Source: Alteromonas macleodii ATCC 27126 (GTDB lineage Bacteria; Pseudomonadota; Gammaproteobacteria; Enterobacterales; Alteromonadaceae). From it: a stretch of DNA of 64,000 bases. Positions 1 through 36,407 of the stretch are shown here, in pieces. The DNA lies in NCBI RefSeq assembly GCF_000172635.2, contig NC_018632.1:3038001-3102000 (forward strand). The letters are read 5' to 3'. Numbering within the stretch: position 1 is the stretch's first letter; the number at the start of each line of letters is the position of its first letter. The translations under genes and the position numbers were made by a program. The notes under the pieces are model-generated. The model was not told where the DNA came from. It did not search any database and worked only from the letters and a program-made list of their open reading frames with translations.

Positions 1-667
1 ACAAATGGATACTGCTATGCACAAACATCGCGGGCTCTGTCAAAGTCTCAATGCCATGCGAATGCGTTTTGGTATATCTAAACAGTATTTCTGTATCTAC
101 CATCCGCCCAGATATTATTGGTACTAAATTATGGTGCAAATCCAGTACAGTTCCCCTTACTCCGTGCGTCAACGGAGGAATTTCATGCGCCCACTTTCTA
201 TAATACTGGTCATCATAATCGTTTATATCTTTATGGCACCAGCCTGCTAGAATAAGTGCTTTTTCAACCGCTGTAATATCGCTTTTTTTTACTATAACAT
301 CAACATCACCACACGTTCTTCCAATACTAGCGGAGCAATTGCTTAAAACATAAGCCCCCCCTTTCAGAAAAACTAGCTTTTTAGTTTTGCCTTTCAAATA
401 GGTGCTTAATTTTTCTGCTTCGTAGCGAATTTGCGTATGTTGGTGCTCGGCTAGGGTTATAGCATTTTCAAAATGCCGTTGGACACATTTCTCGAGAGTT
501 GCTAGCACCCCAACATCGCGAAACCGATAGCCAAACCTAGCCAAAAGCTGCTCGCTCCTCATTACTAAAATAAGGGATTCCCACTGTCTCAATGAAACAG
601 AAGTTGCTAATTGGGGCTCTGTGTACAACTGTATAATTGACTTTTGACTCAACAATGACTGACTCAC
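1..667 (-). CDS. Nucleotidyltransferase family protein (PF14907-like), 3' end cut by window edge
   Basis: My translation from a GTG at 667 reads 222 codons without a stop to the window edge. Visible motifs are FLKGGAYVL near residue 100, a metal-binding-type GDVDVIV about 20 residues later, then HEIPPLTH and LDLHHNLVP. This is the pattern I know from the NTP_transf_5 (PF14907) nucleotidyltransferases found with HPr-kinase-like genes. The GTG overlaps the TGA of the upstream kinase gene as GTGA, so translation is probably coupled. It is the last visible gene of the 2433-to-1 cassette. Substrate unknown; by analogy with lasso-peptide clusters it may extend a phosphate placed by the kinase (inference). 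A later ATG in the same frame exists about 35 codons in. Confidence 0.8.
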   Translation of the reverse strand, partial: MSQSLLSQKSIIQLYTEPQLATSVSLRQWESLILVMRSEQLLARFGYRFRDVGVLATLEKCVQRHFENAITLAEHQHTQIRYEAEKLSTYLKGKTKKLVFLKGGAYVLSNCSASIGRTCGDVDVIVKKSDITAVEKALILAGWCHKDINDYDDQYYRKWAHEIPPLTHGVRGTVLDLHHNLVPIISGRMVDTEILFRYTKTHSHGIETLTEPAMFVHSSIHL

Positions 668-1521
668 AAAATTTCTTCCTCTATAAAATCTTGAAGGTCA
701 ATAAGATTATTGTGCCAAACTCTAAATGATTTAGCCTTTTCCACCGTCTTAACAATCGTGTCAAACCCAATCTTTCCGAGAGCAGTGAAATTAAAAGCAT
801 TGTTACTCAATTGCATAAACGAGTTTGAGTTATCCAACGCTTCTATTTCTAGAATATTTCCAGCCGTGTATTGCGGATAGATTATTCCCACTATTTCAGC
901 TTCTTCAAACCTCATATCCCACGATGAAATAGGAGGAGATACATGTATAACATCCCCCTTGTGCGTATCTTTGGCTATTGATGAAAACGACGCATGAGGA
1001 AACCATTTTTTAGCCAACTTAATGGAGTTGTTTTTCAAACATATTGGCCGAACAAATGGATGACAGCGCCCAGTCTTTAGGTTTATCAGTGCCATTTCAT
1101 CTGATAATAACTGCCACCCGTTAAATGCTAAATGTGTTGTGATTGTACTCTTTCCGCTGCCTGGCGGAGCGGGAAACAAAATTGCTTTACCATCTTTGGC
1201 AAGCACTGCGGAATGGACCAGTAAAAAAGACATTTCATGAGACGCAACTGTCCAATTCATCCCCCACTCAAGCATCGCAAATGCCTGACTATAGTCCAGT
1301 GGTTTAAACGGCTCTCGTAAGTCGCACAAAAATCTAGCTTGCTTTCGAAAAAGTTGGCGAATTAGCCCAGAGTTATGAACTTGTAAAAAGTAATCTGTAA
1401 AAGCTTGCTCCTCAAAACAATATGAAGGGTACAATTTCTCAAGATTGGAATTTACCAAAGGTATATTAGTAGAAAGTTTAAAACTAAAGGGGGCTAGCGA
1501 GAGGCTAAGTGGCATACTCAA
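664..1521 (-). CDS. HprK-related kinase A (HPr-rel-A system kinase)
   Basis: 285 aa with a P-loop APPGSGKST at residues 118-126 in a context typical of HPr kinase/phosphorylase relatives (hydrophobic strand AILFP just before, LLSDE about 15 residues after). It lacks the long N-terminal domain of true HprK. Such proteins are known as HprK-related kinase A and occur beside a PqqD-like protein and a nucleotidyltransferase, exactly the neighbours here. The start ATG overlaps the stop of the PqqD-like gene (ATGA) and its stop overlaps the nucleotidyltransferase start (GTGA). Probably phosphorylates a protein or peptide partner in the cytoplasm; the substrate is not known. It is not the PTS HPr kinase, since no ptsH or rpoN operon surrounds it. 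Confidence 0.82.
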   Translation of the reverse strand: MSMPLSLSLAPFSFKLSTNIPLVNSNLEKLYPSYCFEEQAFTDYFLQVHNSGLIRQLFRKQARFLCDLREPFKPLDYSQAFAMLEWGMNWTVASHEMSFLLVHSAVLAKDGKAILFPAPPGSGKSTITTHLAFNGWQLLSDEMALINLKTGRCHPFVRPICLKNNSIKLAKKWFPHASFSSIAKDTHKGDVIHVSPPISSWDMRFEEAEIVGIIYPQYTAGNILEIEALDNSNSFMQLSNNAFNFTALGKIGFDTIVKTVEKAKSFRVWHNNLIDLQDFIEEEIL

Positions 1522-1742
1522 CGGCTTCTCTCTATCATTTCTTTTGCGGCTAACTCGGAAATTACTTTCGAAGAGTGATTAAGAGGACTATCGTTAAAAG
1601 TTGTTTCACGTAACAGTTTCATGAAACAATGGATGTTAAAGCTGACACATACCACTTCAAAGTTGCTTGAATTGTAAAGTGCAATACCAGAGTTATCACT
1701 AAAGGGATGAACAAATACTTCATCCCTCAAAACATAACACAC
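1518..1742 (-). CDS. PqqD-like small protein of the HPr-rel-A system
   Basis: 74 aa, GTG start at 1742, one base after the stop of the Tat-exported protein gene. The pattern (short beta strands, a residue run giving ALYNSSNFEVVCV, then a helical tail with ISELAAKEMI) fits PqqD-type RiPP-recognition/peptide-chaperone folds, in which strands build a peptide-binding edge. In the family such proteins hand a peptide substrate to a modifying enzyme. Overlap with the kinase start by 4 nt supports a functional pair. Weak sequence signal by eye; the call relies strongly on context. Confidence 0.65.
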   Translation of the reverse strand: MCYVLRDEVFVHPFSDNSGIALYNSSNFEVVCVSFNIHCFMKLLRETTFNDSPLNHSSKVISELAAKEMIERSR

Positions 1743-1743
1743 T

Positions 1744-2433
1744 TTATACTGTTACCTCAGATGCAATGCAACCATTTTGACACTGGTCGATTATTGCGGC
1801 AAGTTCAATACCTAACTTGCCAGCATTGGAACTATAGAGTTCGGATAAGTAATCAACGTAATTTTGCAAAGAGCCAAACGAAGCTAAAACAGGGTAATGC
1901 ACACCATGCATACCGTGGTATTTTGCGTTCAAATACATGCTAACGATATGGCAGTTAACGTTATCGGGGCCCGATAAATCAAACTTGTTTTTGGGATTCC
2001 CCAACCTGTCGAGTTTACTCGTGCGCTTTACAAATACGTCTGTGTCGTCCGTTACACCAGCAATTAACACCCCGCTATCGCCTTCTGACTTGAGAAAGTG
2101 ATGGAGTTTTGGCGCTTCAAATCCACCTAAATAAGTTGGTAACTTAATTGAATTTCCAGAGTCGCTTAAAGCATCAAACCCGAAAACCGAACTAAAAGTC
2201 ACCTTGTCACTATCTGGTATATTGTTTTTCCAATAACCATGTGAACGAAGCATTATACGCTCACCACTAGCCCAGTCTGACCCATGACCTGAAGCCACTA
2301 TCGAATTCACTGTACCATTTGCCCAAACCGACCTTGCAGGTAAACTCAGTAAGGCCGTACCTGCTGCCGCTCTTTTGACAAATTTTCTACGACTTGCACT
2401 AGAGTTTGTTTTTAACTCGTCCATTTCTGACAA
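1744..2433 (-). CDS. Tat-exported protein of unknown function with GYWKN motif
   Basis: 229 aa. Residues 14-20 are SRRKFVK, a textbook twin-arginine motif, followed by a hydrophobic AAAGTALLSLPA and a likely cleavage after SVWA (residue 38). The mature part has LRSHGYWKNN near residue 64-73, resembling the GYWKNH motif seen in various secreted bacterial proteins, and a later HIVSMYLNAKYHG. No membrane anchor or PEP-CTERM tail is visible; the end is NGCIASEVTV. It is first in the cassette with the PqqD-like, kinase and nucleotidyltransferase genes, so it is the obvious candidate substrate or effector (inference). A sigma-54 type promoter lies 39 bases upstream of the ATG. Confidence 0.7.
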   Translation of the reverse strand: MSEMDELKTNSSASRRKFVKRAAAGTALLSLPARSVWANGTVNSIVASGHGSDWASGERIMLRSHGYWKNNIPDSDKVTFSSVFGFDALSDSGNSIKLPTYLGGFEAPKLHHFLKSEGDSGVLIAGVTDDTDVFVKRTSKLDRLGNPKNKFDLSGPDNVNCHIVSMYLNAKYHGMHGVHYPVLASFGSLQNYVDYLSELYSSNAGKLGIELAAIIDQCQNGCIASEVTV

Positions 2434-2487: not shown

Positions 2488-2688
2488 ACAGTTAAACTTC
2501 TGATTTAATAGAGAAAAAGTAAAAAAAATAGTTAACTGTAAAGTTTTCTGACAAAGTCATCGATAATGATTTGTCATGCTTCGTTAATCGCCTGCGCTAT
2601 ATACGCATACTATTTAACCCATAAACTATAGTGTACTCTATTATTCGGGCAATTTAAATCAAACTTGTATACTAGAGAGTGCATCAAA

Positions 2689-4341
2689 ATGTTAGCCATC
2701 GAAAAAATTTTAAAGGAGAGGCTTAAAGGTATCGCAGTAGTCATTTGTGACTCAGGTTTAATTGCAGAATACTTAAACTCTCCGGAAGGTTTCAATTCAA
2801 CCATAACTTGCGTTGTCAAACCTTTAACCATTGGCGCAATAGAGAGTATTCTGAATATTGCAAACAATTGCCAAGAGACAGCTATTCCTGAATTTGCGAT
2901 TCACCCTTTATCCACAGGAAAAAATTGGGGATATGGCTCTTCTGTTCCAATAGAAGGGTCTAAATCAAACGTGATATTAGATCTTTCTTCGCTCGATAGC
3001 ATAACTCATTTCGATAAAGAAAACGGTATCGTATCTCTTCAGCCCGGTGTGACCCAACAACACCTATTTGACTACTTACATGATAATAATCATCCCTACA
3101 TGGTTCCTGTTACAGGTGCAGGCCCGACTACAAGCATTTTAAGTAACGCTCTCGAGCGTGGCTATGGTATTACGCCGATCGCTGACCACTTCACCTCAGT
3201 AATGTCGATAAAAGGTTTTTTAGCAGATGGAAGCTTTTACGAGTCTTCTCTTCAATGTATGAGCGATACTGCTAATGGAAAAAATAGTGAATGTTACGTA
3301 GATAAAACATTTAAATGGAAACACGGCCCTTATCTCGACGGAATTTTCACTCAATCTGGAAACATGATTGTAACCGAAATAACTCTATCATTAGCTCGTG
3401 TAAAGCCTGCATTTGACTCTTTTTATATGCGCTTTTTCGACAAAGAAAGTTTCGATAACGCTTATGCGGTTGTGAAAGAAATTTTCCACAATTTAGAAGG
3501 CGTTGTAGGGTCAATAAATTTGATGGATAAAAGGCGTGTCGCCGCGATGGTCGCAGACAACCCCCAAGGCTGTGGTAGCCATAAAGTAATGACAGATGAA
3601 CAAGTAGACGCAATTTCTAAACATTACGATGTACCTGAATGGACATTAGTAGGAACGGTCTACGGCACACATTCGGTAGCAAAGGCTGCAAAAAGTGATA
3701 TCAAAAAAATTGCAAAAGGAAAAGCCGATCAAGTTCTGTTCTCTAGCGACCTATTGGTTAGATTAGGTCAAGTTGTTACTAAAAGGCTTAGCCTTCCGAT
3801 ATTAGATAGTGCAAGAGAGCAACTTGAAAAGCTCTCTGCGGGAATGGAGGTCATGCAGGGCAAGCCCAGTCAGGTTGCTTTACCTCTAGCTTATTGGCGC
3901 AACCCTAGAGTTCGACCAGATAAGTCACGATTGATGAACCCCGCAAAAGACGGTTGTGGTCTGCTTTGGTACGCCCCTCTTGTACCAGCTAAAGTAAGCT
4001 CAATGAAAGCTTTTATTGAAATGGTTCGAAGTATTACCCCCAAATATAATATTGAACCCATGATAACCTTTACAAACCTTAGTGGGATTTCGACTGACAG
4101 CACTATCCCAATTGTGTTTGATTTAGAAAATCCGCAAGCAGTAGAAGATGCACACGCATGCTTACAGGCATTGTTTGATGAGGGCGTGAAACAGGGGTTC
4201 ATCCCTTACCGATTAAACATTCAACAGCAATTAGAACTAAATGCTAACAGTACGTTTTGGAAAACGGCCGGGAAAATCGCTCACGCATTAGATCCTGCTG
4301 GCATTATAAGTCCAGACAGATACAACCCTTATAAACCCTAA
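2689..4341 (+). CDS. FAD-binding oxidoreductase of the p-cresol methylhydroxylase / vanillyl-alcohol oxidase type
   Basis: 550 aa from the ATG at 2689; an AGAGAG ribosome site lies about 9 bases upstream, which is why I prefer it to the in-frame TTG at 2665. HPLSTGKNWGYGSSVP near residue 75-90 is the FAD pyrophosphate-binding loop of this superfamily, and the C-terminal LDPAGIISPDRYNP is the typical closing motif. Known members oxidise para-hydroxylated phenols, often with FAD bound covalently through Tyr or His, and pass electrons to a cytochrome or oxygen. No cytochrome subunit gene is adjacent. It is divergent from the Tat-protein cassette and overlaps the protease gene tail-to-tail by 4 nt. 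Its substrate and any link to the PEP-CTERM system are unknown. Confidence 0.8.
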   Translation: MLAIEKILKERLKGIAVVICDSGLIAEYLNSPEGFNSTITCVVKPLTIGAIESILNIANNCQETAIPEFAIHPLSTGKNWGYGSSVPIEGSKSNVILDLSSLDSITHFDKENGIVSLQPGVTQQHLFDYLHDNNHPYMVPVTGAGPTTSILSNALERGYGITPIADHFTSVMSIKGFLADGSFYESSLQCMSDTANGKNSECYVDKTFKWKHGPYLDGIFTQSGNMIVTEITLSLARVKPAFDSFYMRFFDKESFDNAYAVVKEIFHNLEGVVGSINLMDKRRVAAMVADNPQGCGSHKVMTDEQVDAISKHYDVPEWTLVGTVYGTHSVAKAAKSDIKKIAKGKADQVLFSSDLLVRLGQVVTKRLSLPILDSAREQLEKLSAGMEVMQGKPSQVALPLAYWRNPRVRPDKSRLMNPAKDGCGLLWYAPLVPAKVSSMKAFIEMVRSITPKYNIEPMITFTNLSGISTDSTIPIVFDLENPQAVEDAHACLQALFDEGVKQGFIPYRLNIQQQLELNANSTFWKTAGKIAHALDPAGIISPDRYNPYKP

Positions 4342-5123
4342 TACTTTACGTCATTTTTATTAAGTATTGCCATAACGTGTTTAACTGGGATTGCGTAACT
4401 AATTCCACTTGGAGATGAAAGAGCTGCTTCTTTGCCCTGGCTTACAAAGACTTTATTAATCACACCCACCAAATGCCCTGTCTCTATATTATAAACAGGG
4501 CTACCTGAATTACCTGGAAATGCTGTGGCGTCGAGTTGATATACGAGTTCAGGCTTTTTTAGTCTCTTGAGCATTGAGACTGTCAACTGATCTGCATTCC
4601 TCGCAGGTATCGCATCAGGCGTAATAGCTGATATTAGTCCTTTGTGCGTAGCAGGATAAAGTCCAATTGCAGCACCTAATGGAAACCCAGTAAAAGCAAT
4701 TTCATTGCCTGGCTTCAATAAAGTTTCGCTTCCCATTTTTAATGGCTTTAGTTCATTACTGATTTTCAATAGCGCTAAATCATGAACAGGATCGATATCG
4801 ACAATTTCTGCTTTTTGAGCAGTGACGTTTCGACCTTCACCGTGAATAGCAACATAGTGTTGCACGATTTGGGGATCTAGAATTTTTGAAACCACATGAT
4901 AATTGGTTATGACCCATTTACCGTTGCCAACTACAAAGCCAGTACCAAGAACTTGATTACCATCACTTTCCAGTGGTGTATACAAACCGATAGCAACGAC
5001 AGAATCCGTTGTCTCAGACACTATATCAACAAACGAATAACTTGCATTTGCACTTAAAAAAGGTGAAAAAAATAGAGATGTAAAAACCAGTAATACGTTG
5101 GAATAGTGCGATAAATAGGACAT
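4338..5123 (-). CDS. Secreted trypsin-like serine protease (S1/DegP-type catalytic domain)
   Basis: 261 aa with an N-terminal signal peptide (residues 1-27, ending in SANA). The catalytic triad is visible: His76 in TNYHVV, Asp115 in DPVHDLALL and Ser206 in FPGNSGSPV. There is no PDZ domain after the protease domain, so it is shorter than DegP/DegS. Likely periplasmic or extracellular. Similar proteases are often found in PEP-CTERM loci, but a role in processing those proteins is only inference. Its 3' end overlaps the flavoprotein gene by 4 nt in convergent orientation. Confidence 0.85.
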   Translation of the reverse strand: MSYLSHYSNVLLVFTSLFFSPFLSANASYSFVDIVSETTDSVVAIGLYTPLESDGNQVLGTGFVVGNGKWVITNYHVVSKILDPQIVQHYVAIHGEGRNVTAQKAEIVDIDPVHDLALLKISNELKPLKMGSETLLKPGNEIAFTGFPLGAAIGLYPATHKGLISAITPDAIPARNADQLTVSMLKRLKKPELVYQLDATAFPGNSGSPVYNIETGHLVGVINKVFVSQGKEAALSSPSGISYAIPVKHVMAILNKNDVKY

Positions 5124-5399: not shown

Positions 5400-6248
5400 T
5401 TGGATATCGCTTCATCTATGGTTAAAAGTAAAAAGCAAACCCTGCTCGAGAAGTTAGGGACTATAGTTGGTGAGAAAAGTAAAATAGGAAAGCTTATTTC
5501 AGGATATAGAAAGCTGGAAGAAGCGAACTATATTTCTAGTCATTTTTCGGCATATTTGGCGCCAGTTGTTGCGAGTTCTAAAGAGTTGAAAAATGATGTT
5601 TTTACTATAAGACATGAAGTGTATTGTGAAGAACTTGGATTTGAGCCAATAAAAGAGAGTGGTTTAGAGTTTGATGAATTCGACAGCTTTTCACTTCACT
5701 GCTTAATACAACACCATAAAAGTAAGCATTTTGCGGGCACAGTGAGAATGGTGAGGCCCACAAAGCCCGATGAACAGCTTCCAATAGAAAAATATTGCCT
5801 AAACTCCATCACGCGAAAAGATTTAGACCCCTCTCAGTTTGACCGCAAAGATATTTGTGAAATATCGCGATTAGCTGTTCCTAAAGAGTTTCGTCGACGT
5901 GTAATGGATAAATTCGCAGGGGCTGGAGTGGCAGTTATCAACGAGCACACATACTCTGAAAAAGAAGTTCGCTGCTTTCCTTTTATTGCAGTTGGGCTTT
6001 ACCTCTCTGCAGCAGCGTTAGCAATCGAAGAAGATATAAAACACGCTTATGTAATGATGGAGCCGCGTTTAGCGCGTAGTATGAAATTCATCGGCATCAA
6101 GTTCGAGCAAGTTGGCCCTGTGGTCGAATATCATGGTAAACGTGCGCCTTATTATATAAATAAGTCCCTACTACAGAAAAGCCTTCGCCCTGGCTTTGCG
6201 AAAATGCTTGCAGATATACTTGCCGCACTGGAAAGGCAGGAGTTCTAA
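5400..6248 (+). CDS. PEP-CTERM/exosortase system-associated acyltransferase
   Basis: 282 aa from a TTG at 5400; an ATG at 5418 is an equally possible start, as neither has a clear ribosome site. The block NDVFTIRHEVYCEELGFEP near residue 63-82, followed by EFDEFDSFSLHCL and ICEISRLAVPKEFRR, is the signature of the GNAT-like family linked to exosortase loci, which is distantly related to LuxI autoinducer synthases. The acyl donor and acceptor are not known. It stands alone, ended by a hairpin shared with the PEP-CTERM gene on the other strand. Its presence beside a PEP-CTERM substrate and prsT supports the assignment. Confidence 0.85.
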   Translation: MDIASSMVKSKKQTLLEKLGTIVGEKSKIGKLISGYRKLEEANYISSHFSAYLAPVVASSKELKNDVFTIRHEVYCEELGFEPIKESGLEFDEFDSFSLHCLIQHHKSKHFAGTVRMVRPTKPDEQLPIEKYCLNSITRKDLDPSQFDRKDICEISRLAVPKEFRRRVMDKFAGAGVAVINEHTYSEKEVRCFPFIAVGLYLSAAALAIEEDIKHAYVMMEPRLARSMKFIGIKFEQVGPVVEYHGKRAPYYINKSLLQKSLRPGFAKMLADILAALERQEF

Positions 6249-6328: not shown

Positions 6329-7300
6329 CTAAACTTTGCGACGACGATTGATTGCGCCGATACCAATCAAAGCCAAACCAAACAATGCGATAGTAGACGG
6401 TGCAGAAACTACATTTCCTCGAACGTTACCATTACCTGCTGCAGAATAAACCTCTAGGGTGCCATCTGATGCATCGTTAAATTGCGCTGATAGACCAAAG
6501 CCGATAACATCGCTCAATAATTCTAAGCCAGCTTCTGCCCAGCTAATATCTTCTGCTTCTGTGAAGCTAGTCATAGCAAGACCGCCTATAGCGTCTAGAG
6601 AGAAGTCAGTATCCCCAGCAGAAAGACCAAAAACTCCATCTCCGATGCTTTCAGCGCTGTAAACTGAATCAATAAAGCTCAACTTAAGCCATAGATCACC
6701 ATCCCCTGCATTTGGAGCGTTTGCAAGAACGTTGTTCTCGTCAATTTCAAGATCAGGTGTATAGTCAATAAAAATATCCAACACGCCTGACGATGGTTGA
6801 ATACCTAGAAACAAAATCTCCCCAGTTTGAGGATCTTCAAACAAGTTTCCATTGTTCACTTGGTTTTGAATGAAATCTTCAAAAGTCACACCAAAGTCAG
6901 CAACTCCGCTATCTTCGTACGCAGTGCGCAGGTTAGCTTCAGTTCGAGAGCCGGCTAAAGGATTGAAACCTAGACCAATGTTAGAAAATTCAAAAGTCAA
7001 TTCGCAACCGTTACATTCGAACTTTCCTAAACCTGACCCTGTTAGTTCGCCGTAACCATTTAGGGTAAAGCTTCCCAAGTTACCAAGAGTGAGGCTAGAA
7101 AGAGATGTAGGTGTACCAGCACTCTCCCACCACTGAACAAACTCAAAACCATTATTGAAGTTACCTTGACCTTGCGTCGGGTCAGCACCTTGAAGTGGAT
7201 CAAGCGTAACATTACCAGGAAGACTTACTACACTAGCACTCGCTAGCGAAGATGCTCCTAGTGCCACAGAAACAGCAACTGCCTTTAGAATTTTTTTCAT
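6329..7300 (-). CDS. PEP-CTERM sorting domain protein (variant V-S-A-P-S-T tail)
   Basis: 323 aa. It has a Sec signal peptide (residues 1-22, ending SLASA) and a C-terminal tail at residues 298-323: motif VSAPST, a hydrophobic segment IALFGLALIGIGA, then the basic end NRRRKV. This tripartite tail is what exosortase A recognises and cuts; the usual P-E-P is replaced by S-A-P. The mature part has two cysteines (CNGC) and many Asp/Asn/Gly residues, with no recognised enzyme domain. Expected to be exported, processed by XrtA and attached to or released with the extracellular matrix. A sigma-54 promoter match lies 42 bases upstream; it is a single-gene unit ended by the hairpin at 6285-6312. Confidence 0.88.
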   Translation of the reverse strand: MKKILKAVAVSVALGASSLASASVVSLPGNVTLDPLQGADPTQGQGNFNNGFEFVQWWESAGTPTSLSSLTLGNLGSFTLNGYGELTGSGLGKFECNGCELTFEFSNIGLGFNPLAGSRTEANLRTAYEDSGVADFGVTFEDFIQNQVNNGNLFEDPQTGEILFLGIQPSSGVLDIFIDYTPDLEIDENNVLANAPNAGDGDLWLKLSFIDSVYSAESIGDGVFGLSAGDTDFSLDAIGGLAMTSFTEAEDISWAEAGLELLSDVIGFGLSAQFNDASDGTLEVYSAAGNGNVRGNVVSAPSTIALFGLALIGIGAINRRRKV

Positions 7301-11314: not shown

Positions 11315-12427
11315 TTGAGTGAAACCATCCCATCGTCCGAGATTATCGTTAAGTCTCATAAAGTGAATTCCACAACACAACTACTCCTTTTAAAAAATAA
11401 GTGGACCACGCTGTTTAATCGTGCTGATAGTAAATTCTTTTTGAGTTGGCGTTGGATAGCCAGTTTTGCTCACAATGCATTGGATAGTGGCTATACACTC
11501 TATCTTACCGAGGCTGCGCATTGCGATGAAACAGTTGGTCTAGGCCTTTTTGTTAAGACACAAGAAACCCGAAATATTCTATTTCGCTATACACAATTAT
11601 ATCTTCACAAAACTGGTGATGACGCACTGGATAAGAGTTGGATAGAGTACAACGATTTTGTGCTTGATGCGCGTGCTCCCAAGGCTATTCGAGCAGCCAT
11701 GTGGTCTTTTGTCATCTCTCATTTCTCTGACGTTGACGAGTTTGTTTTAGGTGTAAGCGAAAAAGGCGTGTGCGATGAAACAAGTGCAATTCTCAAGCGT
11801 TTTTTGGTTAGAGACTATCTTCACTCAAATGGATACAAGCTGCCAATAAGCGCTGACGGCGACACCAAGTACAAAAGTGCACAAGCACGCTCTCAAATTA
11901 GAAGGAGTAATAAATTAATTGAGCAGATGGGTCTCACTTTTACCGTTTCCAGAGATATTAAGGATTATTCGTCTGCAATTACTAAATTGCAGCCGATGCA
12001 TGAAAACACGTGGCAAGAAGAAAGCGGGTTTTGCACCGGCACTTTTGTAAAACATATGGAATTACTAACGCAATACAACGACAGCACGGCACTGATTAGT
12101 GCCGAATTGTCAGATGCAAACAATGTCGTTGCAGTACTGATTGGGTTTGTGCACAAAGATACGTTTTATTACTACTTATCAGCCAACGAGACTAGTACCA
12201 ATAACAAGATCAAATATGGCCTCAGTCTTCATCACTTTGTGATTCATTGGTGCTCCCAACAGGGCTTAAAGTATTACGATTTTTTGGCGGGGGATTACCG
12301 CTACAAACGTTCATTTACTGACAATACACTTCAGTTCAGCTACTTATTCTTTCAACGCCCCTCTTTGAAGACGAAACTTGAACATTGGTTAAGAGGAACA
12401 AAAAAAAGGCTATTCTCTAGGGAATAG
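11315..12427 (+). CDS. GNAT/FemAB-like acetyltransferase (CelD/BcsL type)
   Basis: 370 aa from a TTG at 11315 with a purine-rich AGAAGAAAAA upstream. The C-terminal half (YYYLSANETS, YGLSLHHFVIHWCSQQGLKYYDFLAGDYRYKR split over two blocks) matches the Acetyltransf_6/CelD pattern, in which a GNAT-type fold ends in a motif with a small-residue-D-x-x-x-G-D. Such proteins occur in polysaccharide loci and probably acylate a sugar or peptide; the substrate is unknown. It runs convergently into the FemAB-type gene, overlapping it by 11 nt. Its role in the XrtA locus is inferred from position. Confidence 0.7.
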   Translation: MSETIPSSEIIVKSHKVNSTTQLLLLKNKWTTLFNRADSKFFLSWRWIASFAHNALDSGYTLYLTEAAHCDETVGLGLFVKTQETRNILFRYTQLYLHKTGDDALDKSWIEYNDFVLDARAPKAIRAAMWSFVISHFSDVDEFVLGVSEKGVCDETSAILKRFLVRDYLHSNGYKLPISADGDTKYKSAQARSQIRRSNKLIEQMGLTFTVSRDIKDYSSAITKLQPMHENTWQEESGFCTGTFVKHMELLTQYNDSTALISAELSDANNVVAVLIGFVHKDTFYYYLSANETSTNNKIKYGLSLHHFVIHWCSQQGLKYYDFLAGDYRYKRSFTDNTLQFSYLFFQRPSLKTKLEHWLRGTKKRLFSRE

Positions 12428-13475
12428 CTTTAACAATGTGAGGCCCAATCAATTTGGTAATGCCTATTGGAAGCTTTTGCCATACTTTAATGGCTAAACC
12501 AAAGTTTTCGTTATCTGGCGACAAGTCTGGCAATGCTTTACCTTTCGGTACATAGTGATACCAATAACATTGATGAGGTTGTGCTCCCCACTGCTTTTTG
12601 AACTTATAGGTACCTGCATCAATAGATGAACGGCCAAAGTCAAACTGCTTAAACCCTTCTTCAATGGCATAACTTAAGATTTGCCAATACAAATACATGT
12701 TTACCGAAATGCGATTGGCATAACGAACAGTGCTTGCCCACGGGATCTCAAGTTTGTCTTTGTAATGCATTAGAAATCCGGTAGATACGGGCTTTCCTTC
12801 CCAGTAAACCACACAAATATGGACATTGGCTTCAAATGTATTTAGTATTTCAGCAAAAAGCTTCTTGCTGTAAACTGGCGTACCCAGATCTCTCATGTTT
12901 TGACAAAAAACATCATAAAAATCGTCGAGTAGCTCTTTGCCACCAATCTTATGGCTAACGCCTTCGCGAATAGGCCTTTTTATTTGTGAGCGGCGCTTAG
13001 ACCCGATAGATTTACCTAATGCGTCTTGGCTTTCTGGCAAATCTAATATCATATTTACTTTATGTGTCGACAAATGAAAATCAGAGGGCATATTTTCTTC
13101 GCTACAGCGAAACTGCACGTGAGACACGTTAAGATTATCGGCAAGCTCAGTAGCTGCATTTACCAACATAGTACTTACGTCTGTGTTATCAGCTAGCACC
13201 CCGCCATAATTAAAATAAGGCATGGAAACGAGAAAATTACCAAATACCACGCTCTTCAAATTAACTAAAGGCAACACGCCAACCACCTTGCCTGACGTGT
13301 CTTTAGCTAAAAAATAACGTGGTTTCTGGCTTAATGTTCTTTCTATTAATTTGGCCCAAGCCATTTTATGATAAAGAGCGCCGCTGCTGTGCTGCTCTAC
13401 GTAGGCATCCCACAGCTTGTAATCTTCGTTTTTAACTTCTTCTACGCTATACAATGCCTTACTTCCATTAGTCAT
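12417..13475 (-). CDS. FemAB family XrtA/PEP-CTERM system-associated protein
   Basis: 352 aa from the ATG at 13475, which has GGTGA 8 bases upstream; a TTG at 13490 is the longer alternative. Landmarks are SSGALYHKMAWAKLIE near the N-terminus, SKRRSQIKRPIREGV in the middle, and FDFGRSSIDAGTYKFKKQWGA near the end, matching the FemAB-related proteins of exosortase loci. FemAB relatives transfer amino acids from aminoacyl-tRNA to peptidoglycan precursors; in this branch the substrate is unknown. It overlaps the end of the upstream beta-helix gene by 8 nt, so the two are likely one operon. Confidence 0.88.
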   Translation of the reverse strand: MTNGSKALYSVEEVKNEDYKLWDAYVEQHSSGALYHKMAWAKLIERTLSQKPRYFLAKDTSGKVVGVLPLVNLKSVVFGNFLVSMPYFNYGGVLADNTDVSTMLVNAATELADNLNVSHVQFRCSEENMPSDFHLSTHKVNMILDLPESQDALGKSIGSKRRSQIKRPIREGVSHKIGGKELLDDFYDVFCQNMRDLGTPVYSKKLFAEILNTFEANVHICVVYWEGKPVSTGFLMHYKDKLEIPWASTVRYANRISVNMYLYWQILSYAIEEGFKQFDFGRSSIDAGTYKFKKQWGAQPHQCYWYHYVPKGKALPDLSPDNENFGLAIKVWQKLPIGITKLIGPHIVKAIP

Positions 13476-21633: not shown

Positions 21634-22833
21634 TTAAATGCACTGCAAACTACACCAGTCCCATGTGTATTTTCTAAAGCTTTTAGCTAGCTCTTCACGG
21701 TTTAAATCCTGCTGTAATAACATAATTAACGCATTGACAATTGCAAGGTTATCGTCGGGACTAACAACTTTACCCAGATTTGGTTCACTCGCCATTATTT
21801 CTGGTACACTTCCGACCTTTGTAGCTAATGCAGGACACCCACAAGCTAGAGCCTCTGTGAGTACATTCGGGCTCCCCTCCCCCCTGCTTGACAAGCAAAA
21901 TAAATCTGCAGCATTGTACCAATCGATAAGTTTTTCATTTGGTACCGCACCAACGAAGTGCACGTGTTCACTCAATTGTAAATCAAAAACCAGCTTTCTA
22001 AGCTCTTTACGGTAATCCCCCTCAGCCCCTTCTGCACCAAGAATATAGAAGTGGGTGTTATGTAATGCTTCAGTGTTAACGATATGGCTAAGTGCATTAA
22101 TAACTACATCAAACCCTTTTCTATAAATAAGTGCGCCAACACCTATTATTACTTTATTCTCGCTTGGAATTTCAAGGTTATTGCGACAGGCCGTTTTGTC
22201 TTTATAAAAAAATGCATCAGTATCCACTCCGTTTCTTACCACCTTTGTTTTGTGTCGTGAACTTGCAATTCTGTCAGCAGTGTCGGCCATCTCTTCGCTG
22301 AGTGAGATAATGCTGTCTACCTTTTTTAGGTACTTCGCAACAGTTCTTTCTCTGATATCACCGTCTTGCTGATGAAAAGCTTCCATCCCTCTCAAAGTTA
22401 CGCGATAAGGAGTATGATAACGATTGCTCAGATAATCCCCAGCGGGGAGGTCTGGAAAAGTCCAGTGTAAATCAATTAAATCGAAATCGAATCTAATTTT
22501 TTTAATAACCTTTTTCACTGCATTTCGATAGGATAAGATTTCTAACGCTTTAAAGTGCCCAGGAATTGATAGGTATCTAGGGTGATATATGCTCAAGTTT
22601 CCGCGTTGTGTACTGGAAGGAATATGGCTCAGGTGTTTAAACTTATCGATAAAAAGATGAATGGGTGACCAAGGTATAGGGTTTATGACCGTAATATCAG
22701 CATATTTCGCCATCGCGTTTAAGCGGTTGTACACAAAAATGCCGTGATTAGGTTTTTCTGGGTTAGGGAAAAGGTAACTAATCGCCAATATTTTTTTACG
22801 AACTGTGTGATCGTTTTTACTGTCCACATGCAT
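21634..22833 (-). CDS. Glycosyltransferase family 4
   Basis: 399 aa from the ATG at 22833; longer starts would run deep into the asparagine-synthase gene. KKILAISYLFPNPEKPNHGIF begins the N-terminal GT-B domain; IIGVGALIYRKGFDVVINAL and DLFCLSSRGEGSPNVLTEAL are typical C-terminal GT4 donor-binding blocks. Adds a sugar to the growing lipid-linked unit. It overlaps the upstream gene by 17 nt and is followed after 21 bases by the O-acyltransferase. Sugar specificity unknown. Confidence 0.88.
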   Translation of the reverse strand: MHVDSKNDHTVRKKILAISYLFPNPEKPNHGIFVYNRLNAMAKYADITVINPIPWSPIHLFIDKFKHLSHIPSSTQRGNLSIYHPRYLSIPGHFKALEILSYRNAVKKVIKKIRFDFDLIDLHWTFPDLPAGDYLSNRYHTPYRVTLRGMEAFHQQDGDIRERTVAKYLKKVDSIISLSEEMADTADRIASSRHKTKVVRNGVDTDAFFYKDKTACRNNLEIPSENKVIIGVGALIYRKGFDVVINALSHIVNTEALHNTHFYILGAEGAEGDYRKELRKLVFDLQLSEHVHFVGAVPNEKLIDWYNAADLFCLSSRGEGSPNVLTEALACGCPALATKVGSVPEIMASEPNLGKVVSPDDNLAIVNALIMLLQQDLNREELAKSFRKYTWDWCSLQCI

Positions 22834-24721
22834 CTCGATTGTGATAATTTTTCCTAAGCCACTCTTCGAGTACAACCAATTGCCATAGTATTTTATGATG
22901 GTCGTACTTATCTGCATTATGCTCTTCTATCAGCTGATGAATGCGTTCAACCTTAAAGAACTGATGAAGCTTTGTTTTATTCGACAATAATAAGTCTTTC
23001 GCGTAGTCCCGAAGCTCGTTTTGAAACATTAGTTTAAGTGGTGTGGGGAACCCCATTTTCTTACGATAAATAATGTCGTTGGGCAAAATGCCTTCCATCA
23101 TCTTTTTAAGTGGATACTTTCCTTCGCCTTTTTTAATTTTATGCTTCGACGGTATAGTTGCCGCAAACTCTACTAATCTGTAATCAAGAAACGGCACTCG
23201 AAGCTCAACCGATGTTGCCATACTCATGCGATCGGCTTTGATTAATAAGTCGTCAACTAGCCACGTTTTTGTATCGAAGTAAAGCATTTTGCTTAGCTGG
23301 TCGTTATCCTTAGTATTGTCAAACAGTTGCTTAGAAAATTCACCGTAATTTATTGCTGCTTTGACGGAATGTAATCGTTTGCTGAAGTCGTCTCTATACA
23401 ACGCTTGTTTTTGTGCGTCTGGGTAGGTAGACATACCTTTGTAGCGCTTTTCAATAGGTTGTGTGGCCATATTCAGGTATTTAGAGACCTTATGACTTTT
23501 GCCCAGCACTTTATTTGAAATACCTGCAAAAAATTCTGTTCCGCACTGCCCTACTACGTTACGGTACTTTTCTAATACGTTCATGTACTGGTACAGGTCG
23601 TAACCAGCAAATATTTCGTCAGACCCTTCGCCCGAAAGTGCTACTGTGACTTTTTCTTTCGCCAGTTTGGAAACAAAAAACAGGGAAATAGCAGCAGCCT
23701 CGGTAACAGGCTCATCCATTAAATGAATATACTCAGGAATAAAGTCGGCAAACTGCTGCGGAGTAATTTTTAGCTCATGGTGGTCGGTACCAAACCTCTC
23801 TGCAACCATTCTTGCATACTGCGTTTCGTCGTAGTTCTTACCAAAGTCATAAGCTATCGAGAATGTTTTTAGGGGTTCTTTTACTCTATCAGCAAGTAGT
23901 CCAACAACTGCGCTAGAGTCTATACCACCACTTAAGAAAATACCGAGAGGGACGTCACTGCGAAGCCTAAGGTCTATCGCACTTTCAAGTAACGCTTTGC
24001 TTTCATTTACATAGAAGTCAAATCCCTTATCTTCAACGTTATTAAACTCGAGATCCCACCACCGTGTTGTTGTTAGTTGGCCATTCTTCACAATGGCGTA
24101 ATGGCCTGGCATTAGGCGCTTAATGCCTTTATGAAGCGTATTTTCGCCAGGAATATAGCCAAAACTCATGTAGTCGTCGATTAACTCAACATTTAACTCT
24201 GGGAGGACACTTAGACCTTTTAATATAGCTTTAGTTTCAGAGGCAAAAATAAGCTCGTTAGCACCTTGATAGTAATAAACGGGCTTTATCCCCAAGCGAT
24301 CTCGGGCCAGAAACAATTCTTGTGTTTCGTTATCAAATATTGCAATAGCGAACATGCCGTTAAAACGGCTTAAACAGCTTTTTCCCCACTCTACGTAAGC
24401 TTGTAAAATAACCTCGGTATCGGTACCGGTTACAAACGTATAGCCTCTTTGCTCGAGCTCGGCTCTAATTTCAATATAGTTATACACTTCGCCATTATAC
24501 GAAATAACAAAACGGCCGCTTTCATCTACCCGAGGTTGATGGCCTGCCGGAGTGGGATCTAATATACTCAATCGTAGATGAGCTAACCCACAATAACCAT
24601 TGTCTGACACCCACAATCCGTTGCTGTCTGGGCCACGATACGACATGGTGTTTCGCATGATTGCAATACGTTCTGCATCCACTGCATTGGTAAAATTTAA
24701 CGTACCTAATATTCCGCACAT
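22817..24721 (-). CDS. asnB: Asparagine synthase (glutamine-hydrolysing) / glycan amidotransferase
   Basis: 634 aa. Cys2 is the glutaminase nucleophile (start MCGILGTLNF), followed by SYRGPDSNG and the synthetase domain with GIFLSGGIDSSAVVGLL (PP-loop SGGxDS) and VALSGEGSDEIFAGYD. In polysaccharide loci such enzymes usually amidate a uronic acid sugar rather than aspartate. It differs clearly from the second AsnB-type gene at 33655, so this is not a recent duplicate. One base separates it from the glycosyltransferase-like gene upstream. Confidence 0.9.
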   Translation of the reverse strand: MCGILGTLNFTNAVDAERIAIMRNTMSYRGPDSNGLWVSDNGYCGLAHLRLSILDPTPAGHQPRVDESGRFVISYNGEVYNYIEIRAELEQRGYTFVTGTDTEVILQAYVEWGKSCLSRFNGMFAIAIFDNETQELFLARDRLGIKPVYYYQGANELIFASETKAILKGLSVLPELNVELIDDYMSFGYIPGENTLHKGIKRLMPGHYAIVKNGQLTTTRWWDLEFNNVEDKGFDFYVNESKALLESAIDLRLRSDVPLGIFLSGGIDSSAVVGLLADRVKEPLKTFSIAYDFGKNYDETQYARMVAERFGTDHHELKITPQQFADFIPEYIHLMDEPVTEAAAISLFFVSKLAKEKVTVALSGEGSDEIFAGYDLYQYMNVLEKYRNVVGQCGTEFFAGISNKVLGKSHKVSKYLNMATQPIEKRYKGMSTYPDAQKQALYRDDFSKRLHSVKAAINYGEFSKQLFDNTKDNDQLSKMLYFDTKTWLVDDLLIKADRMSMATSVELRVPFLDYRLVEFAATIPSKHKIKKGEGKYPLKKMMEGILPNDIIYRKKMGFPTPLKLMFQNELRDYAKDLLLSNKTKLHQFFKVERIHQLIEEHNADKYDHHKILWQLVVLEEWLRKNYHNRDACGQ

Positions 24722-32550: not shown

Positions 32551-33677
32551 CTTAACTCCTTACCAAGGATTATCACTCTCTTCGCGTTTTCTTGCCAAAC
32601 AAACCTTTTATCTACCACGCTCTGTTTTACTGCGCTTCGCTTCGCGATATGTTTGGTGTAATGGGTAATAGCTTCGGTTAATGTCTCTTTGAAGGCCTGT
32701 TGATTTCCTTTTTCGAAGAACAATGCAGTGTTGTCACTTAATATTTCTTCAATATTAGGCGTTCTAGGCGCAATAATCAGCGCTCCAACGGCCATATACT
32801 CGAACATCTTTAGGGGCGATGCGTAAGACGTGACATCTGGCTGAAGTGCAATATCGAAATCTTTTACGAAGTTAAGCACTTTTTCTCGGGAAACAAGGCC
32901 TTTAAACTCAACTTTATCGGCGATACCCAGTTCCTCCGCTTGAGCTTTTAGTTGAGGTAAAATGGCACCGTCGCCAATGCATACCAGTTTAAGTGGTAAC
33001 TCTTTATGCTCGGCAATAGCTTCAATTGCTTTGTCCATTCCGTGCCACGGATGGATAAAACCAGTAAAACCAATCGTTATTTGTGCTTTTTCTTCAATAT
33101 TTGGCTGCGCAAGCATTTCATCAATAAAGTACTGACGCACTCCATTGTGAATAACCTCTATTTTGCTATCGGGCACACCCGCCGCTCGTACATAATCGGC
33201 AAGCACGTTAGTCACAGGCAAACAGCAGTCGGCCCCTGTCCACGTGAAATTTTCAATTTTTTGGGCAAAGCTCTTTAGTGCGAGTCCACTGTACCTGCTT
33301 CGCTCTTCCACGAGTGGTGCATTTATTTCTAGTATCAATGGCACGTTGAAAAGCTTTGCTGCCAATACACCCGCGGGCTGATACAAATTGTAACGTTCAT
33401 AAATCACATCGGGTTTAAACTTAATAATGGCAACAGCCAGTTTTATAAACACCCACATGCTATAAGCAAGCTCAATAATTTCATACAACGCATGTGGCAG
33501 CGCTTTTTTCAGTTTACTAACAAAACCGCCGTCACCACCAAATTCTGCATTTTCGTTTACTTGTGGCGCCACAAAATGAAGTTCATGCCCTTGTTCTAAA
33601 AGTGCGTTTGTGAGCTCTTCAACATGAACATATTGTCCGTCTTTCGAGGCAATTCTATGGTGATACAATATTTTCAC
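32538..33677 (-). CDS. Glycosyltransferase family 4
   Basis: 379 aa from a GTG at 33677, so the protein begins MKILYHHRIASKDGQYV as GT4 enzymes of exosortase loci do; a TTG at 33692 is the alternative. GGDGGF near residue 50, DVIYERYNLYQPAGVLAA, IGFTGFIHPWHGMDKAIEAI and KMFEYMAVGALIIAPRTPNIEEIL are GT-B landmarks. Adds one sugar in the cytoplasm. Overlaps the amidotransferase gene by 23 nt. Confidence 0.87.
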   Translation of the reverse strand: MKILYHHRIASKDGQYVHVEELTNALLEQGHELHFVAPQVNENAEFGGDGGFVSKLKKALPHALYEIIELAYSMWVFIKLAVAIIKFKPDVIYERYNLYQPAGVLAAKLFNVPLILEINAPLVEERSRYSGLALKSFAQKIENFTWTGADCCLPVTNVLADYVRAAGVPDSKIEVIHNGVRQYFIDEMLAQPNIEEKAQITIGFTGFIHPWHGMDKAIEAIAEHKELPLKLVCIGDGAILPQLKAQAEELGIADKVEFKGLVSREKVLNFVKDFDIALQPDVTSYASPLKMFEYMAVGALIIAPRTPNIEEILSDNTALFFEKGNQQAFKETLTEAITHYTKHIAKRSAVKQSVVDKRFVWQENAKRVIILGKELRCYQ

Positions 33678-35580
33678 TTTCTTGTGTTCCAAAGTGTTTT
33701 TCTAAAAATGCGTTAAAAATAAGAAGTGACCAAATAGTCATCCCATGCTCGTGACCACGCTCGTGATGTTCATCTAGCAGTATGCTGATACCGTCTTGAG
33801 AAAATAGCCCAGTTTGCGCCAATGCCCCCTCTGAAAGTTTACTTTTCAAACTCTCTTTGGGGATCTGTCGAAGCCACTCATCAATAGGTGATGAAAATCC
33901 CATTTTTTTTCGCTTGGTTACGAACGGCGGAAGCAAGTGCTTGAAGCCATTGAGCAATAGTCGCTTGGTTTGGGTCATTGATAGGTTGAGTGATGGAGCC
34001 GCTGCCAGCGTGCGTTCAACCAGATGATGATCTAAATAGGGTACGCGCACTTCAAGTGAATTTTTCATGCTTGCACGGTCTACTTTGGTAAGAATACCGC
34101 CTGCAAGGTAGGTCTTGAAGTCTATAAGCTGTATTGCTTTAAGGCTGTTAGTGCATCTGCATTTTTTGGCTATATCGTTAAATAGGCTTAAACTACTGTA
34201 ACCTTTCAATTGCGCTTTTAACTTCGCAGAGTAAAGTCGTGACAATTCGTTTTGATGTGTAATTGAAATCGCATTGTGGTAGCTACCAATGGCACTACCA
34301 GCTAAAGCACTTAACGTAGTTTTACCACGCAAAAACTTTGGTGCAGTTTTTAAATTTGGATAGAGTTTCGCTAATGTACCAAACATTTTTCTGCGCACGC
34401 CGTCAGGCAAGCACTTACGAATTTTTTCCTCAACCCACAGCATTTTATGGTTACGATATCCATAGAGCAGCTCATCTGCTCCATCGCCAGATAGTGCGAC
34501 TTTCACGTGCTGTGCTGCGACACCTGACAGTATAAAAGTTGGAATTGCTGAGTTATCAGCAAACGGCTCGTCATAAATATCAACAAGCTTTTCCATAAAG
34601 GTTAAGTCATTAATTGAAACACTGGTGTTTAAATGCTTAAAGCCCAACTGCTTGGCTAACTGTTTTGCATAAAAAGATTCGTCGTACTTCGATAAATCGA
34701 AACCAATTGAGAACGTATTGATAGGTACTTTAGAGTGCTTTTGCATAACAGCAGAGATAACCGAAGAGTCAATTCCACCTGAGAGAAAACTACCTAAAGG
34801 CACGTCAGCTATCATGCGAAGACTAATAGCTTCTTCCGTTAGTCGAGAAAAATCTTCATTTATGTCTTTCTCGCAAGTTATGTCATCAGACACGAAGTCT
34901 TCTATATTCCAATAACACTCTGGCGCAACTTCACTGTCACGTGTACTTAAATCTATCGTAATAACATGCGCTGGTGGCAACTTGAAAATATCTTTAAAGA
35001 TGGTTTTGGGATCGGCCACATAGCCTAGCGAGAAAAAATCTTCTATGGCACAGGGGTTCAAATGTTTTTCAATATCAGGATGCGCAGTAATGGCTTTTAG
35101 TTCAGACGCAAATAATAAGTCTCCTTGCGTCGTTTTTGCCCAGTGTAATGGTTTAATTCCTAAACGGTCTCTGGCTACAAATATTTTGTTTCGAGGCTTA
35201 TCGTAAATGATAAATGCAAACATACCTCGCAGTTTCTGAACCGCAGATGCTCCCCATTCTTTCCAAGCAAATAACAAAACTTCTGAATCGCACTGCGAAG
35301 CAAAAACGTGGCCTAAACTCTCTAGCTCAATTTTTAATTGCTTAAAATTATAAATTTCTCCGTTGTAACTTAAGACAATACCGTCACTTTCGATAGGCTG
35401 CTTACCATTTTCAACATCTAGAATTGATAATCGCTTATGTCCTAACCCCACACTGCTATCAATATAGAATCCTTCACCATCAGGGCCTCTATGGTGAAGA
35501 GTTTCAGTCATTGAACGCAAAGTAGACTCGTCGACTTTTCCGTCAGTTGTCGCTTTTACCCAAGCTACTACGCCACACAC
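33655..35580 (-). CDS. asnB: XrtA/PEP-CTERM system amidotransferase (asparagine synthase-like)
   Basis: 641 aa. Nucleophile Cys2 (MCGVVAWVKA), LHHRGPDGEGFY, LGHKRLSILDV, then GSFLSGGIDSSVISAVM and VALSGDGADELLYGY with the PP-loop. The LGHKRLSILDVENGKQPI and FSLGYVADPKTIF blocks match the amidotransferase subfamily of exosortase A loci. It probably amidates a sugar acid or another cluster product using glutamine and ATP. Between a GT2 gene (5-base gap) and a GT4 gene (overlap), close to the exosortase. Confidence 0.92.
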   Translation of the reverse strand: MCGVVAWVKATTDGKVDESTLRSMTETLHHRGPDGEGFYIDSSVGLGHKRLSILDVENGKQPIESDGIVLSYNGEIYNFKQLKIELESLGHVFASQCDSEVLLFAWKEWGASAVQKLRGMFAFIIYDKPRNKIFVARDRLGIKPLHWAKTTQGDLLFASELKAITAHPDIEKHLNPCAIEDFFSLGYVADPKTIFKDIFKLPPAHVITIDLSTRDSEVAPECYWNIEDFVSDDITCEKDINEDFSRLTEEAISLRMIADVPLGSFLSGGIDSSVISAVMQKHSKVPINTFSIGFDLSKYDESFYAKQLAKQLGFKHLNTSVSINDLTFMEKLVDIYDEPFADNSAIPTFILSGVAAQHVKVALSGDGADELLYGYRNHKMLWVEEKIRKCLPDGVRRKMFGTLAKLYPNLKTAPKFLRGKTTLSALAGSAIGSYHNAISITHQNELSRLYSAKLKAQLKGYSSLSLFNDIAKKCRCTNSLKAIQLIDFKTYLAGGILTKVDRASMKNSLEVRVPYLDHHLVERTLAAAPSLNLSMTQTKRLLLNGFKHLLPPFVTKRKKMGFSSPIDEWLRQIPKESLKSKLSEGALAQTGLFSQDGISILLDEHHERGHEHGMTIWSLLIFNAFLEKHFGTQESENIVSP

Positions 35581-35585
35581 GGAAG

Positions 35586-36407
35586 CTATCTCCTTTGAAT
35601 TCGCTTGTAGAGTCCATTTAAACCCCAGAAATATCTATGCTTTTTCATAAGGTAAAAAATGCCCGCAAGATGCGAAAAGTGGAATTTATTGAGTTTAAAC
35701 CCACGCGATAACTCCTGCGCGTCGTGTATTACAGATACGTCAGGGACGTAATGAATTTGGAAGCCAGCCTCCCAAATACGAATGCAGTAATCAACATCTT
35801 CTGGAGAATAAAAGATCTTTTCATCTAACATTCCCACCTTATCTACCACGTGCTTGGGTAACATCCAACATGCAGATATAGCATAATCAACCGCTTGGGG
35901 AGCGCTGACTAAAGATAAGTCACTGGGTTTCTGTTCCATCTTCTTCAAAAATAGGAAACGCTTTGCTTTACCCCATAGCGTAGGAAACTTGTCGCACGAA
36001 AGTTGGAAATTACCTGATGCGTAAGTCACTTTCGGCACAGCTAAGCCTACTTGCTTATTTTGATCTAAATAGCTGATTAATCGCTTAAGTGCTTTTGCGT
36101 TAACATAAGCATCCGAATCTAAAACCAACACGTGTTTGCCTGATGCTCGCTTTAATGCTTGATTTCTTGAAAATGTTGTACCGGTGTTTTCACCAAGATT
36201 TATTACATGAAGTGCACTACCAAACTTGTCAGCGTATTGATTTATACATTCAAGTGAATTATCCACCGACCCGTTTTCAACGACAAAAACCTCGCCGATC
36301 AATTCTGCACTTTGTAACGCGTCATAAAGAGCGGTTAAGCACTTACTGATATGCTGTTCAGAGTTAAAAGACAGAATTACTACTGAAATATCCACTTGTT
36401 TACTCAC
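35586..36407 (-). CDS. Glycosyltransferase family 2
   Basis: 273 aa. DISVVILSFNSEQHISKCL is the GT2 N-terminal strand, GKHVLVLDSDAYVNAKAL carries the D-S-D metal-binding motif, and GMLDEKIFYSPEDVDYCIRIW carries the E-D-x-D-Y-C-x-R block of rhamnosyl-type GT2 enzymes. Adds a sugar to a lipid-linked acceptor. Start overlaps the exosortase gene by 8 nt. Confidence 0.9.
   Translation of the reverse strand: MSKQVDISVVILSFNSEQHISKCLTALYDALQSAELIGEVFVVENGSVDNSLECINQYADKFGSALHVINLGENTGTTFSRNQALKRASGKHVLVLDSDAYVNAKALKRLISYLDQNKQVGLAVPKVTYASGNFQLSCDKFPTLWGKAKRFLFLKKMEQKPSDLSLVSAPQAVDYAISACWMLPKHVVDKVGMLDEKIFYSPEDVDYCIRIWEAGFQIHYVPDVSVIHDAQELSRGFKLNKFHFSHLAGIFYLMKKHRYFWGLNGLYKRIQRR

Follow-up and report, generated by a model that had tools for sequence, protein, structure and literature searches.

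In Alteromonas macleodii ATCC 27126, a kinase and a nucleotidyltransferase resembling enzymes that tailor short peptides are encoded beside a gene for a protein with a twin-arginine translocation (Tat) signal, which raises the question of what these enzymes modify. We analyzed 64,000 nucleotides of contig NC_018632.1 (positions 3,038,001 to 3,102,000; hereafter "the window"), whose first 2.4 kb hold four coupled minus-strand genes for the Tat-signal protein, a PqqD-like protein, the kinase, and the nucleotidyltransferase. By analogy with ribosomally synthesized and post-translationally modified peptides (RiPPs), we think it probable that these genes form a RiPP-style modification cassette acting on the whole Tat-exported protein, with the kinase and then the nucleotidyltransferase working before export. 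The original prediction, made from the window's sequence, had described the same four genes and, as we also infer by analogy, phospho or nucleotidyl modification before export. The open reading frames lie where it placed them, and family models support the kinase, the nucleotidyltransferase, and the Tat signal. The cassette and its conserved segments are as follows.

1744 to 2433, minus strand: Tat-signal protein, the proposed substrate; 229 amino acids from a TTG start or 226 from an ATG at 2424; above the TIGR01409 cut-off
2320 to 2391, minus strand: twin-arginine signal, residues 15 to 38; RR in all 59 aligned rows that cover these positions, W37 in 60 of 60
2278 to 2304, minus strand: S44-x3-S48-x3-S52, proposed modification segment; all three serines invariant in 60 close relatives
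2224 to 2238, minus strand: GYWKN, residues 66 to 70; W68 in 56 of 60, Y67 in 41, K69 in 27
1924 to 1938, minus strand: MYLNA, residues 166 to 170, conserved, in the mature domain; N169 and A170 in 60 of 60, the aligned Asn in 131 of the 135 type I proteins described below
1518 to 1742, minus strand: PqqD-like adaptor of 74 amino acids, a putative RiPP recognition element (RRE); predicted structure closest to lasso B1 RREs
664 to 1521, minus strand: HprK-related kinase A; TIGR04352, 287.6 bits, cut-off 200
1 to 667, minus strand: nucleotidyltransferase, PF14907, truncated at the window boundary; the whole protein (382 amino acids) scores 108.4 bits

The full nucleotidyltransferase gene extends past the window (382 amino acids, 11519-12667 in locus L002). 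The junctions are tight, although not entirely as predicted: kinase and nucleotidyltransferase genes do overlap as GTGA, but the expected ATGA between PqqD and kinase genes is instead TTGA (if the kinase starts at TTG) or TGA-GT-ATG. The Tat and PqqD genes are separated by 1 nucleotide.

The gene set across genomes

Loci were gathered by the kinase alone, yielding 38 at the order level (35 of 98 genomes above the cut-off), 39 in a class-level sampling (41 kinase-positive genomes among 369; two already in the order-level set), and the best 80 of 354 from a scan of named genomes. Some loci are one place seen twice, and the kinase tree holds 153 distinct sequences. Matches below the TIGR04352 cut-off, among them L070, L071, L072, and L142, were excluded from counts. 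A Tat-signal protein accompanied the kinase at 38/38, 38/39, and 79/80 of these loci, or 155/157 overall, and was duplicated in some. At the two misses (L133 and L169), the kinase match lies at a contig end with 585 and 412 bases before it. The nucleotidyltransferase was likewise present in 155/157 loci, and in both misses (L135 and L157), the contig ends ~1 kb after the kinase start. A loose pattern found a PqqD-sized frame just ahead of the kinase in 149/157 loci, as candidates only. Gene order and strand vary between loci, yet the set of genes is constant: Tat genes lie downstream in L165, L180, L182, and L190 (two apiece in L165 and L182), and the nucleotidyltransferase is divergent in 6 of the 9 loci that we call type II below.

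The Tat gene, kinase, and nucleotidyltransferase are therefore one unit over many genomes. The opposite pattern, with Tat homologs absent from most copies of the cassette, would have counted against the original prediction and was not found. Because the cassette genes occur together in nearly every related cluster that we inspected, the exported Tat protein is probably the unrecognized target of the enzymes. The association also holds when viewed from the Tat protein. Run against the 98 whole genomes, a close-family Tat profile matched 33 times, in 30 genomes. Every one of these matches fell no more than 2.5 kb from an HprK_rel_A gene, and the 63 genomes lacking HprK_rel_A gave none. Five kinase-positive genomes were missed by the profile (G001, G036, G069, G071, and G093), and reading their loci placed a divergent Tat protein in the slot. 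The persistence of both partners despite changed order and strand, and the confinement of the Tat profile to the kinase's neighborhood, are two reasons for our favored reading. Separately, genomes G005 (contamination 7%), G029, and G046 each carry two HprK_rel_A loci with different Tat proteins.

The Tat protein and its candidate serine site

The window's Tat protein scored 18.4 bits on the Tat-signal model TIGR01409 (cut-off 16.7), and tatC was found above its cut-off in the same genome. With both a twin-arginine signal and a host Tat translocase, the protein is predicted to be exported by Tat. Beyond the Tat-signal model, NCBIfam gave one weak match (E 0.16), and no Pfam model matched this protein or two relatives. 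An NCBIfam scan of eight relatives' Tat proteins likewise returned no family beyond Tat-signal models or weak matches, and the window's protein, for which 66 homologs were found, has no Pfam domain across most of its length. Alignment A3 comprised 59 of these 66, leaving out P0059, P0060, and P0062-P0066. In P0060, the conserved Tat signal and Ser segment precede an unrelated C-terminal part annotated PF24125.

Conservation is greatest directly after the signal. Among 60 close relatives, mean pairwise identity was 75% over residues 39-57, 63% in the signal, and 24-50% in the mature domain, and the invariant residues after the signal were S44, I45, A47, S48, and S52. The same segment stands out in 135 distinct type I proteins, an alignment lacking L165, L180, L182, L189, L190, and L209, six loci at which the Tat protein was recognized afterward. 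There, a Cys (116 proteins) is followed by a first Ser (133, with Thr in 2), a second (128), and a third (112), and then by [ST]-P-G-x-W. The S-x3-S-x3-S pattern occurred in 115/140 type I proteins, compared to a shuffled mean of 16 and a maximum of 29 over 200 shuffles. The GYWKN motif highlighted by the original prediction is indeed present, but it is less conserved than this Ser motif beside the signal peptide, which had gone unmentioned. In the predicted structure, the Ser stretch has a block predicted local distance difference test (pLDDT) score of 58-61 with a short helix at 41-46, and the domain after it is mostly >70 and often >90. A low-confidence stretch ahead of a folded domain fits the expectation for a recognition or modification segment. 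From sequence comparison, we propose a fast-diverging, unannotated Tat protein family with a sharp candidate site; that the best-conserved stretch is also poorly ordered in the model and keeps its Ser triad supports the protein as substrate.

Nine class-level loci lack the Ser triad (type II), with Tat proteins of 74-258 amino acids. All nine have [ATN]-S-[ILFA] within the last 25 residues, often as C-x-[TA]-S-[ILF], compared to a shuffled mean of 1.4 (0/500 shuffles reached nine), although this pattern was picked after viewing the sequences and also matches 16/140 type I proteins. In a tree built from the kinase only, the nine form one side of a branch with a Shimodaira-Hasegawa-like approximate likelihood ratio test (SH-aLRT) support of 99 (quick method, no bootstrap). 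Substrate type changes once on this tree vs. a shuffled mean of 8.8, with 0/500 shuffles as low. Substrate type thus tracks kinase clade, with the type II substrates going with one clade, which speaks for a pairing between kinase and Tat protein and, with it, for our favored reading. The shortest type II case (L126 4032-4256, genome G154) is a 74-amino-acid Tat-signal precursor with ~12 residues past the signal, beside PqqD-like and HprK_rel_A genes, and would resemble a RiPP precursor with the Tat signal as its leader.

An unlikely alternative is that the two enzymes load the Tat protein with a nucleotide-type cofactor to yield a periplasmic redox or catalytic protein, the use of Tat being explained by a need for the loaded protein to fold first. 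Cofactor-bearing proteins are common clients of Tat export, and PF14907 retains the D-x-D nucleotidyltransferase motif. However, the candidate site is part of a poorly ordered tail rather than of the folded domain, and scans of the mature domain gave no cofactor-binding family.

The enzymes, the adaptor, and their peptide-tailoring relatives

Since the kinase passes the equivalog cut-off of TIGR04352 (HprK_rel_A), we call the cassette HPr-rel-A-type. Kinase/PqqD pairs of this sort are named the HPr-rel-A system by NCBIfam (TIGR04352 for the kinase, TIGR04353 for the PqqD-family peptide chaperone). The kinase's H, GxGK, DE, R, and K residues are invariant across 17 aligned sequences, and 127/133 nucleotidyltransferases carry a strict KG-x...D-x-D pattern, with a close variant visible by eye in the other six. 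We take these to be the catalytic residues of the two enzymes. Same-slot adaptors in relatives match TIGR04353 (13/23 scanned at E up to 0.1, the window's own included among the 23), but the window's adaptor matched no Pfam or NCBIfam model, TIGR04353 included. Still, its predicted structure (pLDDT 91) aligns best with RREs of the lasso B1 type, and in a profile search of solved structures the top matches were the lasso RREs TbiB1 and TfuB1. The modeled fold is that of a PqqD/RRE protein, as predicted for the adaptor, and the profile result upholds the predicted analogy to lasso-peptide tailoring. This closeness to leader-binding lasso RREs is a further reason for our favored reading. No HPr-rel-A substrate is named in the scanned NCBIfam models or in the literature found. 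Nor did any paper found join these cassette genes (most subscription journals lay outside the search); related titles were lasso-peptide or genome papers.

Two peptide systems offer precedent. The linear polyphosphorylated peptides (LPPs) of Bacillota have clusters with an RRE and a nucleoside triphosphate (NTP) transferase, in which LppK places several phosphates on core Ser3 (PMC13381572). Deleting lppN had no effect in the heterologous host (PMC13381572). Further marks of LPP clusters are an SpI-like leader peptidase, an MsbA-like exporter, and a YxxP-type RRE motif in the precursor leader. LPP clusters share with our cassette a discrete RRE, an HprK-like kinase, an NTP transferase, and a place in polysaccharide loci. 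Their precursors, too, have a conserved N-terminal part and a variable C terminus, with phosphorylation at a Ser near the core N terminus. By contrast, the precursor here combines a Tat signal with a domain predicted to be folded and occurs in an exosortase A context, and no YxxP motif occurs in the N-terminal 43 residues of the window's Tat protein. In pseudomycoidin, the C-terminal Ser is phosphorylated by PsmK, and addition of one or two hexoses to the phosphorylated Ser depends on PsmN (PMC9266682). Paeninodin and pseudomycoidin share with our system Ser tailoring by a kinase and a nucleotidyltransferase. They differ in precursor, which here is a Tat-signal protein rather than a short peptide (the exception being L126), and in that no lasso cyclase adjoins the cassette, as the original prediction had noted. 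The nearest PF00733 genes (22817-24721 and 33655-35580) lie >20 kb off and fall well short of the lasso-cyclase cut-off of 525 bits, at 308.8 and 239. LppK acting on Ser3 and PsmN-dependent hexose addition nevertheless provide precedent for the chemistry we propose.

Two observations stand beside this comparison. The two asparagine-synthase-like PF00733 genes, both on the minus strand within one exosortase locus, best match the XrtA-system amidotransferase model TIGR03108, although neither reaches its 816.9-bit cut-off (562.9 and 746.7 bits). In addition, L070 (G002) has a weak HprK_rel_A match (45 bits) near 5607 beside two small open reading frames, one of which matches lasso_leader_L3 (28.2 bits, cut-off 19), and is probably an ordinary lasso-type cluster.

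The exosortase A setting and the proposed pathway

As predicted, the cassette sits in an exosortase locus, with exosortase A (XrtA) ~36 kb away in the window. Two further features of the neighborhood are as follows.

36400 to 37890, minus strand: exosortase A, co-occurring system; TIGR03109, 275.8 bits, cut-off 208
4338 to 5123, minus strand: HtrA-like trypsin-type protease, PF13365, a loose associate rather than a core part

The expected co-occurrence with xrtA was strong. Among the 98 relatives, 35 genomes carried HprK_rel_A and 39 carried XrtA, each above its cut-off; all 35 kinase genomes had XrtA, compared to 4/63 others (G027, G043, G073, and G074; Fisher P = 1.8e-22, uncorrected for kinship, 59/98 being one genus). 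Without the cut-off, XrtA-like matches at E 0.001 occurred in 71/98 genomes, indicating that it is XrtA proper with which the kinase is associated. In the class sample, XrtA was above cut-off in 35/41 kinase genomes vs. 38/328 others (P = 1.4e-22, uncorrected for kinship). Of the six kinase genomes without it (G105, G149, G154, G283, G346, and G382), three (G105, G283, and G346) match more weakly, and completeness is 75-85% in G105, G283, and G382. Kinase and XrtA shared a contig in 26 pairs, 23 of them within 70 kb and all 23 on the same strand.

Other exosortase-system genes above cut-off in the window encode an acyltransferase (5400-6248) and a PEP-CTERM protein (6329-7300), and its PrsT-like and glycosyltransferase genes score below their cut-offs. 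Directly downstream of the nucleotidyltransferase is a gene of the sugar-nucleotide epimerase/dehydratase type (PF01370). An HtrA-like homolog lies directly upstream on the same strand in 20/38 order-level, 7/39 class-sample, and 11/80 named-genome loci, and a FAD-binding (PF01565) oxidase-like gene (2665-4341, plus strand) lies between the Tat and protease genes.

This setting among exosortase A and exopolysaccharide genes could suggest a different target for the enzymes, for instance a lipid or an exopolysaccharide precursor, with the Tat protein as a partner outside the cell. We consider this quite improbable, as an RRE-type adaptor implies a peptide ligand, the Tat proteins are alike in the segment beside the signal but unlike beyond it, and substrate type tracks kinase clade. 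Least plausible is a reversible HPr-like phosphorylation that gates Tat export or activity with the nucleotidyltransferase regulating the pair, for although the kinase is related to HPr kinase/phosphorylase (E 0.0042) and the candidate serines adjoin the export signal, a simple switch would not need the near-constant nucleotidyltransferase, and three spaced serines are kept instead of one.

In the pathway that we favor, modification of the Tat protein itself, the PqqD-like RRE adaptor would bind the Tat preprotein at or near its signal, and the HprK-like kinase would phosphorylate a conserved Ser just past it, most likely S44 and perhaps S48 and S52. In type II proteins, the counterpart would, by analogy, be a Ser at the C terminus. 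The nucleotidyltransferase could then add a sugar or nucleotidyl group to the Ser phosphate, as the PsmK/PsmN pair suggests, and Tat would export the modified protein to the cell-surface compartment that the exosortase A/exopolysaccharide locus serves. More tentatively, the product may be a phospho-glycoprotein made in the cytoplasm, with the Ser triad first primed by the kinase and a sugar then placed on the phosphate by PF14907. Once delivered by Tat, it would serve exosortase A-linked exopolysaccharide as a protein primer, an anchor, or a matrix partner.

The enzymes are of a kind already named in NCBIfam. The novelty lies in the substrate family that we propose and its Ser motif, in the division into two substrate types that follow kinase clades, and in the tight association with exosortase A. 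Our analysis thereby proposes a substrate for the HPr-rel-A kinases and adaptors. If the substrate is the Tat protein, the RRE-guided kinase/nucleotidyltransferase chemistry of short peptides would extend to whole proteins that have yet to be exported by Tat, and PEP-CTERM proteins would be joined at exosortase A loci by a second kind of processed surface protein. If that protein is also a phospho-glycoprotein, this would be a protein-scale RiPP pathway with the Tat signal as leader, and LPPs and phospho-lasso peptides would be its peptide-scale relatives.
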